Part shown: piece after piece, positions 3,783-8,482 of the stretch
Layout of the letters: each line of letters starts with the position of its first letter
How positions within the stretch are numbered: position 1 is the stretch's first letter
Origin: Rhodobacterales bacterium
Lineage (GTDB): Bacteria; Pseudomonadota; Alphaproteobacteria; Rhodobacterales; Rhodobacteraceae
Reading direction: 5' to 3'
NCBI GenBank assembly: GCA_003228875.1
Contig: QIGK01000035.1
Coordinates: 1-39,951, forward strand
Length of the DNA: 39,951 bases
The notes under the pieces: generated by a model
Databases searched by the model: none
Told to the model about the DNA's origin: nothing
The model's input: only the letters and a program-made list of their open reading frames with translations
Translations under genes and position numbers: made by a program

Positions 3783-4940
3783 ATGAAAACAATAACAACT
3801 ACTGACGCGCTGGCCGCATATTGTGCTGAATGCGCCGCCCATCCTTATGTCACCATAGATACCGAGTTTCTGCGCGAACGCACTTATTATGCGCAGCTTT
3901 GCCTTGTGCAAATCGCCATGCCTGGAATAGGCACTGATGGCGCGGTTCTGGTTGATACATTGGCCGAGGGGCTGGACCTTGCGCCGCTTTATGATCTGTT
4001 TCGCGATGAAAATGTGGTCAAGGTTTTCCATGCCGCACGCCAAGATCTGGAAATTTTTGCGGTTGAGGGCGGCGTTATTCCTAAACCGTTTTTTGACACC
4101 CAGGTCGCGGCCATGGTTTGCGGATTTGGCGAACAGGTCGGCTATGAAACGCTGGTGCGAAAAATTGCCAAGGAACAGGTCGATAAATCCAGCCGCTTTA
4201 CCGATTGGTCGCGGCGGCCTTTGTCGGCCAACCAGAAAAATTATGCGATTGGCGATGTCACCCATTTACGCGTGGTTTACGAAGAACTGGCGCGGCAGCT
4301 AAAAGAAACTGGCCGCGAGGCGTGGGTGGAAGAAGAACTGGCGGTGCTAATGAACCCCGATACTTATGTTGTAAAGCCTGAAAACGCGTGGAAACGCCTG
4401 AAAACTCGAACTAATTCGAAACGGTTTTTGGCTATCGCCCGAGAATTGGCAAGTTTTCGCGAAGAATATGCGCAGCGTAAAAATATCCCTCGGCCCCGGG
4501 TTTATAAGGATGATGCTTTGTTGGAACTGGCTGCAAACAAGCCTCAAAATTCCCATGATCTTAGCAAATCGCGCCTGTTGCGTGACGGGCGGCGCGGCGA
4601 AATTGCCGAAGGCATCTTGGCTGCGGTCAAACGCGGTGTGGAATGCGAAACCGAAAACCTGCCGGAACTACCAATTCAACGCGAAAAGAAACTGGGGTCA
4701 GAGGCATTGTCGGATCTGTTGCGGGTATTGCTTAAGGCCAAATCTTCAGGGGCGGGGGTTGCTGCCAAGCTGATTGCCACCTCGGCTGATCTCGATCGGA
4801 TCGCCAATGAAGAAGCGCCCGATGTTCCTGCATTGCGGGGCTGGCGGCTCAAAACATTTGGCAAAGATGCTTTGTTATTGAAACAAGGAAAAATAGCGTT
4901 GTCTGCAACAGCGGATGGCGTCAAGATCGTTTCGGTATGA
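3783..4940 (+). CDS. rnd: Ribonuclease D
   Basis: This 385-residue 3'-5' exoribonuclease acts in tRNA and structured-RNA 3' maturation. The DEDDy catalytic set is visible: D26 and E28 (TIDTEF), D88 (FHAARQDLE), and Y154 with D158 (YAIGD). An HRDC-like helical region follows at about 200-290, as in other RNase D proteins. An in-frame ATG exists 19 codons upstream at 3726, but the ATG at 3783 has an AGGGG Shine-Dalgarno and gives the usual N-terminus. The stop overlaps the next gene's start (ATGA, 4937-4940), so rnd heads an operon with the CobK-like and SufE genes. Confidence 0.93.
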   Translation: MKTITTTDALAAYCAECAAHPYVTIDTEFLRERTYYAQLCLVQIAMPGIGTDGAVLVDTLAEGLDLAPLYDLFRDENVVKVFHAARQDLEIFAVEGGVIPKPFFDTQVAAMVCGFGEQVGYETLVRKIAKEQVDKSSRFTDWSRRPLSANQKNYAIGDVTHLRVVYEELARQLKETGREAWVEEELAVLMNPDTYVVKPENAWKRLKTRTNSKRFLAIARELASFREEYAQRKNIPRPRVYKDDALLELAANKPQNSHDLSKSRLLRDGRRGEIAEGILAAVKRGVECETENLPELPIQREKKLGSEALSDLLRVLLKAKSSGAGVAAKLIATSADLDRIANEEAPDVPALRGWRLKTFGKDALLLKQGKIALSATADGVKIVSV

Positions 4941-5590
4941 AGTTAACAATTGTTGGCGGGTCACGCGAAGCTGACCTGCTGACCAAAGCGGTTGAAAAGT
5001 TAGGCGTTAAAATTGAACCGTCGGCTGACGTGGTTGTCATTGCGCCGCATCCGTTTGACACTGATCTGATCGAATGCGCGCTTTTGTCAGCAAAGGGAAA
5101 ACCGCATATTCTGTTACAACGGCCAAAATGGTTGCCTGAAACATCTGACAACTGGCATTTTGCAAATTCGGCATCGGATGCAGCCGCGATATTGGCAAAG
5201 TTAAATGTTAAACATGCATTGCTGGCTGTCGGAAACGGGCGATTAGCGCCGTTTTACCGGTTGGAAAATATCGAATTGATGGTGCGCAGCCGCAACACGC
5301 CGCATCCGCCAAACCCGCCAAAAGGCCGGGTTAGCCAATTTTTCGGGCCGTTTGATATTGAAACCGAAGCCAAAGGCCTGATTGACAATCATATCGATGC
5401 GCTGGTGGTTCATAATGCCGGAGGGCAGGGCGGTTGGCCCAAACTGGCTGCGGCTCGGCGTTTGGGTTTGCCGGTTGTGCTGATTGATCGCCCGGAATTA
5501 CCCAATCTGAAAATCGTCACAAATGTTGATGCGGCACTCGATTGGGTTGCGGCATCCTTGGGTCTGGACCTATCTGCACAAAGCACTTAA
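4937..5590 (+). CDS. Precorrin-6A reductase-like protein (CobK/CbiJ family)
   Basis: The 217-residue product matches CobK/CbiJ, the NAD(P)H-dependent reductase of the corrin ring pathway. It has APHPF at about 36-40 (the family's D/A-THPFA site), LLAVGNGRLAPFY at about 95-107, FFGPF at about 135-139 and the C-terminal block from KL at 169 to RP at 186 (AARRLGLPVV core). It is shorter than typical CobK proteins (about 250 residues). The missing part lies in the first Rossmann-like half, where the loop between the start and APHPF is reduced. No other corrin-synthesis gene is in the window. The start overlaps rnd by four bases. It may be a true CobK away from its cluster or a diverged relative, so I give no symbol. 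Confidence 0.7.
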   Translation: MKLTIVGGSREADLLTKAVEKLGVKIEPSADVVVIAPHPFDTDLIECALLSAKGKPHILLQRPKWLPETSDNWHFANSASDAAAILAKLNVKHALLAVGNGRLAPFYRLENIELMVRSRNTPHPPNPPKGRVSQFFGPFDIETEAKGLIDNHIDALVVHNAGGQGGWPKLAAARRLGLPVVLIDRPELPNLKIVTNVDAALDWVAASLGLDLSAQST

Positions 5591-5614
5591 ATGCTAGGCC
5601 CAAAGGGGCAGCCA

Positions 5615-6040
5615 ATGGCCAGTGAACAGTTTGAAACAATTACAGAGGACTTTGCGTTTCTGGATGATTGGGAAGACCGGTATCGTTATGTCATTGAACT
5701 TGGCAAGAAAATGGCGGATATGGACCCGTCTTTCAAAGTTGATGCAACCAAGGTACATGGTTGTGCCTCACAAGTGTGGATCATGCCAGAAATAAAGGGG
5801 CAGGGCGCGGATGCCGTGATCCGGTTTTCGGGGGATAGCGATGCCATGATCGTGCGTGGTTTGATCGCGATATTGCATGCGCTATACAATGGACTAACAG
5901 CCAAAGAAGCGGTTGCGGTCAACGCGTTAAAAGAAATGGGGCGGCTTGGATTAGATCAGCATCTTTCTGCCCAACGCTCAAATGGCTTGCGGGCCATGAT
6001 TGAACGGCTTGACGGCATTGCTGCTAAATTAATTGGATAA
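5615..6040 (+). CDS. sufE: SufE family sulfur-acceptor protein
   Basis: This 141-residue protein accepts persulfide sulfur from the SufS cysteine desulfurase and passes it on for Fe-S cluster assembly. The acceptor cysteine is C50 in VHGCASQVW, the hallmark of the family. The downstream FSGDSDAMIVRGLIAIL segment and the RSNGLRAMI end are also typical. An ATG at 5591 directly follows the previous stop, but the ATG at 5615 is preferred because AAAGGGG sits 6 bases upstream and it gives the standard N-terminus. It is third in the rnd operon. The suf operon itself is not in the window. Confidence 0.92.
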   Translation: MASEQFETITEDFAFLDDWEDRYRYVIELGKKMADMDPSFKVDATKVHGCASQVWIMPEIKGQGADAVIRFSGDSDAMIVRGLIAILHALYNGLTAKEAVAVNALKEMGRLGLDQHLSAQRSNGLRAMIERLDGIAAKLIG

Positions 6041-6070: not shown

Positions 6071-7075
6071 ATGGACGCGCTAAGCAAATTACTGACGGAA
6101 CGACAATGGATATTGGCAGATGGCGCAACCGGCACCAATTTGTTTGCTATGGGACTAGAGGCTGGCGAAGCACCTGAATTATGGAATGTCGACCAGCCCG
6201 CCAAGGTTCGCGCACTTTATAACGGTTCGATCAACGCCGGCAGCGATATTTTCCTGACCAACTCTTTTGGTGGCACCGCATCACGGTTGAAACTTCATAA
6301 CGCGCAAGATCGGGTTCACGAACTAAACCGTGTCGCAGCCGAAATAGGCCGCGAGGCCGCGGATGCATCAGGGCGGTCAGTAATTGTGGCCGGTTCAGTT
6401 GGCCCGACAGGCGATATAATGGAACCGGTTGGCGGCTTGTCCCACACCTCTGCTGTTGAAATGTTTGAGGAACAAGCCAGCGGATTGATGGCAGGCGGCG
6501 CTGATGTTTTATGGCTTGAAACCATTTCCGCCCCCGAAGAATTCAGAGCCGCCGCGGAAGCATTTGCCAATGTCGGCGCACCTTGGCTTGGCTCCATGAG
6601 CTTTGACACAGCCGGGCGAACCATGATGGGCGTCACGTCAGTTGATATGGTTTCGATGATAAAAGAAATCCCCAACCAACCGATTGCTTTTGGGGCAAAT
6701 TGCGGGGTTGGCGCGTCGGATCTTTTGCGGACCATCCTTGGCTTTGTTAAAGAAAAATCCAACCTGCCAATCATTGCCAAAGGCAATGCCGGTATCCCTA
6801 AATACCATGATGGCCATATCCATTATGACGGTACACCTGAGCTAATGGGGCAATATGCAGTGATGGCCCGCAATTCAGGTGCCAAGATTATCGGGGGTTG
6901 TTGCGGCACCATGCCGGAACATTTGGTGTCTATGCGTGAAGCGCTGGAAAATACAGCCATCACATCTGCATCAACTTTGGCTGAAGTTGAGGCCGCCATG
7001 GGCGGGTTTTCATCGGCTGACGATGGCACAAGCGGCGTTGCCCCACCCAAACGTGAGCGCCGTCGACGCAAATAA
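6071..7075 (+). CDS. Homocysteine S-methyltransferase, MetH-module/betaine-homocysteine methyltransferase type
   Basis: The 334-residue TIM barrel belongs to the homocysteine S-methyltransferase family. It carries the DGATGT start motif at about 17-22 and the zinc-binding cysteines C211 (GANCGVG), C277 and C278 (GGCCGT) that activate the homocysteine thiol. It ends in a basic tail (KRERRRRK). It has no cobalamin or folate domain of its own, but the next gene encodes a cobalamin carrier. That makes it either the homocysteine module of a split methionine synthase or a corrinoid-dependent or betaine-dependent methyltransferase. The ATG at 6071 follows a purine-rich GGAACGG site, only 30 bases after sufE. 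I favour the split methionine synthase reading. Confidence 0.85.
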   Translation: MDALSKLLTERQWILADGATGTNLFAMGLEAGEAPELWNVDQPAKVRALYNGSINAGSDIFLTNSFGGTASRLKLHNAQDRVHELNRVAAEIGREAADASGRSVIVAGSVGPTGDIMEPVGGLSHTSAVEMFEEQASGLMAGGADVLWLETISAPEEFRAAAEAFANVGAPWLGSMSFDTAGRTMMGVTSVDMVSMIKEIPNQPIAFGANCGVGASDLLRTILGFVKEKSNLPIIAKGNAGIPKYHDGHIHYDGTPELMGQYAVMARNSGAKIIGGCCGTMPEHLVSMREALENTAITSASTLAEVEAAMGGFSSADDGTSGVAPPKRERRRRK

Positions 7076-7172
7076 GTCGGTCAATGGCATAGCCAAGTCG
7101 TAAATTGCAAAGACTAATCAACAGGCTGCAAGATAAATCAACCCTATGCACCTGTGACAAAGGAATATTTTA

Positions 7173-7868
7173 ATGTCCGACGAAGAAGATGATCTGATTC
7201 TAAGCGAACTCAATGACGAAGAGCTGGTTTTGCAGATGTTTGATGATCTCTATGATGGCATGGCCGAAGAGATCGCGGAATCTGTTGACATTTTGCTGGA
7301 ACGCAAATGGTTGCCTTATGATATTTTGACCAAAGCACTGGTTGAAGGCATGCGGATTGTTGGCATTGATTTCCGCGACGGCATTCTGTTTGTGCCAGAA
7401 GTATTGCTGGCAGCCGGTGCCATGAAACGCGGCATGAAAATTCTTAAACCTTTGCTGATTGAATCCGGTGCACCACAACTTGGTAAAATGGTGATCGGCA
7501 CCGTAAAGGGTGACATCCACGATATTGGCAAAAACCTTGTGGCCATGATGATGGAAGGCGCTGGATTTGAGGTTGTCGATCTGGGTATCAATAATCCGGT
7601 CGAAGACTATCTTGCTGCGATCAAAGAGGAAAAAGCCGATATTTTGGGCATGTCTGCGCTGCTGACAACCACGATGCCTTATATGAAAGTTGTGATTGAC
7701 ACGATGATCGCAGAAGGCATTCGCGATGATTATATCGTGCTGGTTGGCGGTGCGCCTTTGAACGAGGAATTTGGCAAAGCCATTGGTGCTGATGCCTATT
7801 GCCGTGACGCGGCCGTGGCTGTGGAAACCGCCAAAGATTATATGGCGCGTAAACATAACCAGTTGTGA
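7173..7868 (+). CDS. Corrinoid (B12)-binding methyltransferase subunit
   Basis: The 231-residue protein has the two-part fold of MetH/MtbC-type corrinoid carriers. A helical cap domain spans about residues 15-95. A Rossmann domain follows from about 105, with the cobalt-ligating motif D114-x-H116-x-x-G119 (GDIHDIGKN). The SALLTTTMP and VGGAPLNEEFG segments that contact the nucleotide tail come later. The first 20 residues are strongly acidic. It would shuttle a methyl group on cobalamin to the homocysteine methyltransferase encoded 97 bases upstream. AAAGGAA precedes the ATG by about 7 bases. Its stop overlaps the DUF1638 start, linking the three products. Methylamine-type corrinoid proteins are the main alternative. 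Confidence 0.9.
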   Translation: MSDEEDDLILSELNDEELVLQMFDDLYDGMAEEIAESVDILLERKWLPYDILTKALVEGMRIVGIDFRDGILFVPEVLLAAGAMKRGMKILKPLLIESGAPQLGKMVIGTVKGDIHDIGKNLVAMMMEGAGFEVVDLGINNPVEDYLAAIKEEKADILGMSALLTTTMPYMKVVIDTMIAEGIRDDYIVLVGGAPLNEEFGKAIGADAYCRDAAVAVETAKDYMARKHNQL

Positions 7869-8482
7869 CCCGTGATTCTGAACAGTTTTTTGATACACCC
7901 AAAGCCAGCCCCGACAGGGTGCTTATACTGGCTTGCGGTGCTTTAGCCCGAGAGATAATAGCGCTTAAAGAATTGAATGGCTGGTCGCATTTTGTGTTGC
8001 AATGCTTACCAGCCAATTTGCATCTTTATCCCGATAAGATCCCTGATGCGGTCGAAAAAGTTGTGCTGGCTTCAAAAGGCAAATTTGCAAAAATATTTGT
8101 GGCTTATGCGGATTGTGGCACAGGCGGGATCTTGCAAAAACGGTGTGATGATCTGGAGGTTGAGATGATCGCAGGCCCACATTGTTATTCGTTCTTTGAA
8201 GGCAATGCTGCATTTGAACAGCGCGCTGAAATTACCTCGTTTTTTCTGACAGATTTCTTGGCGCGACAATTCGATTCCTTTGTCTGGAAACCGATGGGGC
8301 TGGACCGGCATCCTGAACTACGTGACCTGTATTTTGGAAATTACAAAAAACTGGTGTATTTGGCCCAGACCAATGATCCTGACCTAGACCAAAGAGCCGA
8401 GCAAGCTGCATTGCAGCTTGACCTAGCATATGAGCGCCGGTTTACCGGTTATGGCGATCTGGAAAGCGCGCTGGCCCCCTAA
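7865..8482 (+). CDS. DUF1638 family protein linked to corrinoid methyl transfer
   Basis: This 205-residue protein of the DUF1638 family has no established biochemical role that I can state. Five cysteines fall in its first 107 residues: C24 (ACGAL), C47 (QCLPANLH), C84 (DCGTGG), C94 and C107. Several lie in conserved-looking motifs, which suggests metal or thiol chemistry. The GTG start overlaps the stop of the corrinoid gene (GTGA, 7865-7868), so the two are very likely translated together. That coupling suggests a role in loading, repairing or serving the corrinoid protein, which is inference. The stop overlaps the dctD stop tail-to-tail (CTAA, 8479-8482). Confidence 0.85.
   Translation: MTRDSEQFFDTPKASPDRVLILACGALAREIIALKELNGWSHFVLQCLPANLHLYPDKIPDAVEKVVLASKGKFAKIFVAYADCGTGGILQKRCDDLEVEMIAGPHCYSFFEGNAAFEQRAEITSFFLTDFLARQFDSFVWKPMGLDRHPELRDLYFGNYKKLVYLAQTNDPDLDQRAEQAALQLDLAYERRFTGYGDLESALAP

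Follow-up and report, generated by a model that had tools for sequence, protein, structure and literature searches.

What does a DUF1638 protein do beside a stand-alone cobalamin carrier? The question is raised by three consecutive plus-strand genes in a 39,951-nucleotide stretch of DNA from a Rhodobacterales bacterium, referred to here at its full length as the window; coordinates are window positions unless a contig or locus is named. Our answer, in which we have considerable confidence, is that this cluster combines two modules of a split cobalamin-dependent methionine synthase, E (MtgE) and C (MtgC), with a DUF1638 partner that keeps MtgC active. It draws on the genes, their domains and locations, their co-occurrence, and the conservation of cysteines, as observed here.

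Two modules of a split methionine synthase and their partner

The first gene (6071..7075, plus strand) encodes an MtgE/Bmt-type homocysteine S-methyltransferase of 334 amino acids with a PF02574 (S-methyl_trans) score of 204.5 bits. Among solved structures, it is nearer to the homocysteine domains of MetH (1q7m; E value, 5.7e-35) than to BHMT (human type, 1lt7; E value, 4e-11); nonetheless, the NCBIfam model for betaine--homocysteine S-methyltransferase (NF005718) recognizes it with 553.6 bits, above the cutoff of 338. Its motifs GANCGVG and GGCCGT correspond in the alignment to GINCSLG and GGCCGT in the best solved relative, a MetH, and we take their cysteines to have a zinc role. After a gap of 97 bases follows an MtgC-type stand-alone cobalamin carrier (7173..7868, plus strand; 231 amino acids) with the domains B12-binding_2 (PF02607, 55.1 bits) and B12-binding (PF02310, 95.9 bits). 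In the alignment with its best solved relative (1y80; E value, 8.3e-52), GDIHDIG stands against GDLHDIG, so that GDxHDIG is intact, with a histidine that is presumably the cobalt ligand. The carrier scores well under the NCBIfam cutoffs for MtgC (192.5 versus 370 bits for NF047996, MtgC_2; 166.9 versus 310 for the other MtgC model), which is consistent with roseobacter MtgC being phylogenetically distinct, as reported by Mausz et al. (PMC12478193). The third gene (7865..8482, plus strand) encodes the DUF1638 protein of 205 amino acids (PF07796, 101.5 bits; curated cutoff, 27); its GTG start and the TGA stop of the carrier overlap by four bases in the GTGA at 7865-7868. A preliminary description of this DNA had already placed stand-alone homocysteine and cobalamin modules side by side and noted this overlap, and the open reading frames and Pfam domains bear it out.

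The same description had located the folate and reactivation modules outside the window and proposed a genome search for them. In the assembly of this genome (2.6 Mb, 146 contigs, 90% complete), both were found, and on contig C47 only: a pterin-binding (folate) module, MtgD (C47:71-979; PF00809), and a RamA/RACo-like activase (C47:3822-5840; PF14574, 285.9 bits), whose best solved relative is 3zyy (E value, 2e-98), deposited as "iron-sulfur cluster binding protein." A profile search of this 90% complete genome found no one-piece MetH and no match to the MetH reactivation domain (PF02965, Met_synt_B12), and a full-length MetE was not found either. The metH profile TIGR02082 gave three partial matches, to its homocysteine (positions 41 to 322), pterin (323 to 597), and B12 (638 to 860) parts, which are the two window genes and the pterin protein on C47, that is, separate genes at two loci. 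The modules outside the window are thus present in the genome, which also encodes three MttB-family proteins (PF06253; contigs C115, C9, and C62).

In their own organism, these proteins would act as follows. Methyl-tetrahydrofolate would supply the methyl group that MtgD places on the cob(I)alamin of MtgC, and MtgE would transfer it onward to zinc-bound homocysteine. Glycine betaine would be a further methyl source for the same MtgC, by way of MttB-type (MtgB) proteins, in which case MtgD would work in reverse. Cob(I)alamin that is oxidized to cob(II)alamin would be re-reduced by the RamA/RACo-like ATPase of C47. DUF1638 would bind MtgC and be needed for its activity, most likely because it holds the off-cycle carrier or presents it to RACo, and its conserved cysteines may hold a metal or iron-sulfur (Fe-S) center.

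Relation to published systems

Homology and published genetics both support the reading of this locus as a split methionine synthase. In Phaeobacter inhibens, such an enzyme is made up of PGA1_c13370, c13350, and c16040, accompanied by c15200 and the DUF1638 protein c13340 (Price et al. 2018, PMC5764234). Growth defects that methionine rescues were reported for mutants in each of the five genes, DUF1638 included, and fitness patterns are similar (r above 0.7) among the genes for the homocysteine protein, the carrier, and the pterin protein; the RACo protein of this organism has a Fer2 domain (PMC5764234). In Ruegeria pomeroyi, the split system is described as doubling as a glycine-betaine demethylase: mtgC and mtgD mutants lose both methionine synthesis and growth on glycine betaine, and the DUF1638 protein SPO2162 and a RamA-like protein are more abundant on N-osmolytes (Mausz et al. 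2025, PMC12478193). Both PMC5764234 and PMC12478193 link DUF1638 to B12 reactivation; the idea in the preliminary description that DUF1638 maintains or reactivates the corrinoid protein is therefore a proposal already in print and not a new one. Price et al. state that they have no specific functional proposal for DUF1638 (PMC5764234). They argue against an enzyme of B12 biosynthesis, a candidate that we rejected (PMC5764234). A DUF1638 protein of Sinorhizobium meliloti is listed in a proteomics table (PMC12542648).

Judged by published descriptions and gene numbers rather than by sequences, P. inhibens has the same modules, a DUF1638 gene adjoining that of the B12 carrier, and, at another place in its genome, a RamA-like activase; it differs in that the gene numbers put c13360, a radical-SAM gene, between those for the homocysteine protein and the carrier, whereas in the window these two genes are 97 bases apart and DUF1638 overlaps the carrier. 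The MtgBCDE system of R. pomeroyi DSS-3 is matched in the genome under study by proteins of the MtgC and MtgE types, the pterin module, the RamA-like protein, DUF1638, and several MttB proteins (PF06253), but its mtgC (SPO2160) and mtgE (SPO1884) are, by their locus tags, nonadjacent. Compared with classical MetH, the homocysteine, pterin, and B12 proteins cover successive stretches of TIGR02082, whereas MetH has all modules in one polypeptide; here, they are divided over three genes at two loci, with no PF02965 found. Given the published P. inhibens and R. pomeroyi systems, the window system is a further instance of a system that is already known.

DUF1638 accompanies the carrier

Of 525 related loci obtained with DUF1638 as bait, we surveyed the best 80. 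DUF1638 is preceded by an MtgC-like gene on the same strand in 77 of these, so this neighborhood is not due to chance; in two of the three exceptions (L015 and L046), the DUF1638 match begins at position 97 or 384 in the sequence, and the third (L060) has 8 kb upstream without a carrier. The spacing of the genes, as estimated from BLAST ends and with start codons that are uncertain, is less uniform. An overlap of DUF1638 with the carrier stop is atypical, being found in 3 of the 77 loci (L012, L016, and L063), by one base and using the nearest possible start codon; an annotated four-base overlap occurs in Terrarubrum flagellatum. MtgE was found in 56 of the 80 loci, at less than 300 bases from the carrier in 15, at more than 1.2 kb in 39, and at an intermediate distance in 2. 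Several of the wide-gap loci have an opposite-strand gene in between, with a cysteine motif that we take to be radical-SAM-like. By this spacing, the window is a member of a compact minority.

The association was also followed through 385 genomes drawn evenly from the class of the window, its own genome included. DUF1638 was detected in 75 genomes, spanning 37 families; an MtgC-type carrier in 74; RACo in 87; and PF02965 in 212. MtgC-type denotes at least 71% identity to the window carrier, a threshold set after seeing identities drop from 71% to 52% or less among the matches listed; 73 other genomes have carriers that are 71 to 85% identical to it. DUF1638 and an MtgC-type carrier occur together in 72 of the 385 genomes. 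Three genomes have DUF1638 without such a carrier (G125, G312, and G313) and two have the carrier without DUF1638, namely, G109 and G074, which is 67% complete and has its carrier 533 bases from a contig end. When the best DUF1638 copy per genome was scored for a carrier within 1.5 kb upstream on the same strand, 68 of 75 had one, 66 of them MtgC-type and 2 divergent (43 to 44% identity; G125 and G196). Together with the 77 of 80 bait loci, this answers the preliminary call for a neighborhood survey: DUF1638 is usually found beside corrinoid genes rather than apart from them. RACo accompanies DUF1638 in 72 genomes, in 42 of these within 10 kb on one contig. In contrast, PF02965 occurs in 37 of the 75 DUF1638 genomes versus 175 of the 310 others, without association (Fisher P = 0.30). 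Given its coincidence with the carrier in 72 genomes and the lack of association with PF02965, DUF1638 goes with the carrier and not with methionine synthesis as such.

Activase-carrier pairs without DUF1638 also exist in the class. Six genomes that have no DUF1638 (G081, G187, G224, G229, G359, and G367) carry RACo and a divergent corrinoid protein (46 to 51% identity to MtgC) on the same contig, the RACo being a lower-scoring match in a shorter or similar frame.

Four of 10 plasmid records bearing DUF1638 were viewed. In Azoarcus sp. KH32C (L166) and Paracoccus aminovorans, the genes for the carrier, DUF1638, two MTHFR-like proteins, a pterin protein, and an ASKHA (RACo-type) protein follow each other on one strand, and Sinorhizobium meliloti pSymB has the order of the Azoarcus carrier run with small opposite-strand genes interspersed. 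A scan of viral contigs found no relative of DUF1638.

The DUF1638 protein

The window protein has, as had been noted, exactly five cysteines (positions 24, 47, 84, 94, and 107), with C24 in a CGAL and C84 in a CGTGG motif. All five are kept in the 81 of 81 aligned close copies, the window included. In a family-wide alignment of 83 rows, 75 of them distinct, C24 (73/75), C84 (74/75), and C107 (74/75) are nearly always retained, C47 in 59 and C94 in 30 of 75. An AlphaFold2 model computed from 79 of the 81 sequences (L059 and L065 were left out) shows an alpha/beta protein (mean predicted local distance difference test [pLDDT] score, 84.7; predicted template modeling score, 0.71) in which C24 follows the strand 19-23, C47 ends the strand 43-47, and C84 follows the strand 76-80, while C107 falls within a stretch of low confidence (block-mean pLDDT, 50 to 63). 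These cysteines may form a shared metal or cluster site. By sequence, the best match to solved structures had an E value of 0.89 with the single sequence and 0.21 with a profile. Middling fold matches, to sugar-binding proteins, Asp/Glu racemases, and DPOR, were within the stated background.

DUF1638 beyond the class: fusions to histidine kinases

In a draw of 398 genomes from the phylum, 57 had DUF1638, 16 of them from other classes. Stand-alone DUF1638 is present in 11 of these 16, all of which also have RACo. In three loci (L153, L154, and L155), the order is RACo, corrinoid protein, URO-D methyltransferase (the family to which we assume MtaA-like methyltransferases to belong), DUF1638, and then a PAS protein or PAS-containing kinase. 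These loci resemble the type 1 mlp clusters described by Kountz and Balskus (PMC10418091), with a corrinoid protein, MtaA-like methyltransferases, and a corrinoid activase; they differ in that this paper describes anaerobes and that its text, as far as it was available, is without the terms DUF1638 or histidine kinase.

The remaining 5 genomes (G407, G412, G445, G530, and G534) have only a kinase-type DUF1638, and G391 and G511 have both types. According to Pfam, DUF1638 is N-terminal to HATPase_c (and to HisKA, where detected) in L145, L147, L148, L149, and L150; the translated open reading frame of L149 scores 26.1 bits for DUF1638, just under the cutoff of 27. Contig ends truncate L151 (G530) and L152 (G511), which show no kinase part and were assigned through their similarity to L148. 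Genes for a corrinoid protein and a URO-D protein lie directly upstream in 6 of these 7 loci, the seventh (L150) beginning at a contig edge. A similar protein, AZKH_RS26485 of Azoarcus sp. KH32C (L170:8001-9773; 590 amino acids), is annotated only as an ATP-binding protein. Its alignment with the L148 fusion covers 98% of the latter, with 26% identity; it scores 22.5 bits for DUF1638, below the cutoff, and has CCHTF, RCGRPP, GRACL, and KQCFHW at places corresponding to that fusion; its gene stands behind those of a corrinoid protein and a URO-D protein and before a second kinase gene. As this kinase set lies inside an island for pyrroloquinoline quinone-dependent methanol dehydrogenase and tetrahydromethanopterin-linked one-carbon oxidation (L172, NC_020548.1:255000-300000), the signal in this case could be a one-carbon compound. 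The L166 run of carrier, DUF1638, MTHFR, pterin, and ASKHA genes is on the same plasmid.

The notion that kinase-type DUF1638 modules generally serve methanol oxidation was rejected, this context being seen in Azoarcus only. When 24 of the 46 Azoarcus genes were searched against the other kinase-type loci, over 15.7 to 40 kb around those of G391, G407, G412, G445, G530, and G534 and 4.9 kb around that of G511 (L152), no one-carbon or methanol dehydrogenase gene gave a match at 1e-10, and beyond the module, matches were limited to the kinase and the sigma-54 regulator. Literature searches on corrinoid and histidine-kinase systems returned no title or abstract opening that describes such a kinase module. 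These fusions, beside a corrinoid protein and a URO-D methyltransferase outside the class, are the new element here. The kinase-fused DUF1638 would report the state of the corrinoid carrier. As a wider and tentative reading, which we rate at somewhat less than even, DUF1638 might be a general domain for reading corrinoid proteins that works with RACo in the case of MtgC and in other Proteobacteria forms the N-terminal input of a histidine kinase; such a two-component system would monitor whether the carrier is methylated or what its redox state is.

Weighing the alternatives

The proposal that DUF1638 keeps MtgC active in a split methionine synthase has to contend with several observations that weigh against it. 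At 90% completeness, a MetH or MetE gene could have been overlooked in the genome, and the search for a complete MetH or MetE did yield one partial candidate, a core-MetE-like protein of 359 amino acids (C57:225-1304, identical to L008:225-1304; PF01717, catalytic domain only). P. inhibens has a core-MetE-like homologue too, yet is reported to be a methionine auxotroph when mtgCDE is mutated (Mausz et al., PMC12478193). Purified P. inhibens Bmt is reported to form methionine directly from betaine and dimethylsulfoniopropionate (DMSP) in vitro, with no cobalamin (Narvaez-Barragan et al. 2025, PMC12366255). The co-occurrence statistics ignore relatedness. The fold search of the PDB gave no clear relative (best Foldseek E value, 4.9e-3; best VIA Z score, 7.8; within the stated background). 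On its plasmid, T. flagellatum has the carrier and DUF1638 with no annotated pterin or ASKHA gene within 23.6 kb. G109, which is 99% complete, has MtgC, two unassigned open reading frames, MtgD, and RACo in one same-strand run (L164:7955-13085) without DUF1638, so that DUF1638 is not always needed; this genome is a natural test case for its dispensability. Finally, 15 of the 385 class genomes have RACo but lack DUF1638, three of these RACo matches being weak or fragmentary (G007, G077, and G228), and RACo was not found in G407, G412, G445, G530, and G534 (completeness of 95, 99, 96, 71, and 65%, respectively), where DUF1638 is of the kinase type. Taken together, these last two findings indicate that DUF1638 is not tied to RACo.

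How far do these points favor another role for DUF1638? It might be a chaperone that folds apo-MtgC or loads it with cobalamin, instead of a reactivation factor. It does track MtgC (72 of the 74 MtgC-type genomes) more closely than RACo (72 of 87) and lies next to MtgC far more regularly than RACo lies within 10 kb (68/75 versus 42/72), and a loading defect would yield the same methionine-rescued phenotype as that reported for P. inhibens (PMC5764234). The kinase-fused DUF1638 beside other corrinoid proteins, however, suggests the reading of a state over the loading of a cofactor, and the presence of RACo in all 11 other-class genomes with stand-alone DUF1638 also speaks against a chaperone, which we consider fairly unlikely. 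Alternatively, its invariant cysteines and the presence of RACo in 72 of the 75 class genomes with DUF1638 might point to an Fe-S electron carrier that feeds RACo. Such a carrier would hardly be expected in the five genomes with kinase-type DUF1638 in which RACo was not found, three of them at least 95% complete, and would be missing where RACo occurs without DUF1638. Moreover, RACo can carry a ferredoxin domain of its own, as does the relative in L155, which has Fer2, and that of P. inhibens, although in the copy of the genome under study Fer2 does not reach an E value of 0.001. We give this explanation little credence.

A third alternative concerns MtgE, which might be a self-sufficient betaine/DMSP-homocysteine methyltransferase whose place beside MtgC is incidental. 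Its NCBIfam name, the in vitro activity of P. inhibens Bmt, and the separation of MtgE from MtgC in many relatives (39 of 56 gaps above 1.2 kb) would all fit. Against this, its closest solved relatives are MetH domains and not BHMT; the betaine-binding residues are, according to Mausz et al. (PMC12478193), kept only in SAR11-type Bhmt; and in P. inhibens its counterpart shares its fitness pattern with the carrier and the pterin gene (PMC5764234). A self-sufficient MtgE therefore seems improbable to us.

We thus return to a DUF1638 protein that serves the carrier. Its association with the carrier is supported by distribution and published genetics. In the contexts seen, the common factor is a corrinoid protein, not RACo, methionine, or one particular methyltransferase; the simplest account would be that DUF1638 recognizes a corrinoid protein. 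Beside MtgC, it probably works with RACo to keep the carrier functional.

Neighboring genes

Upstream of MtgE, on the same strand and at a distance of 30 bases, lies a gene for SufE (5591..6040; PF02657, 143.8 bits), a neighbor that is at most a candidate member of the cluster. The same-strand order SufE-MtgE-MtgC-DUF1638 recurs in seven bait loci (L012, L016, L017, L018, L026, L057, and L061). Farther upstream on this strand are a gene for a 404-amino-acid protein and one for a CobK/CbiJ-like protein (4937-5590, plus strand), which covers only positions 63 to 233 of the 234-position profile and thus has a shortened N terminus; a second, full-length CobK/CbiJ-like match lies at C3:46134-46832. 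tblastn detected the CobK-like gene in 3 of the 80 bait loci (L012, L016, and L017), some loci ending before its place. Riboswitch control of the cluster is unsupported, as no Rfam model reached its gathering score in either the window or L007.

Conclusions

The value of the window is one of confirmation: gene order, modules elsewhere in the genome, and published genetics are joined for one more genome. The question of what DUF1638 does narrows to whether it recognizes a corrinoid protein, and the kinase fusions provide a second, independent system in which such recognition can be tested. If the wider reading is true, some bacteria would sense methyl donors via a B12 protein and a histidine kinase.

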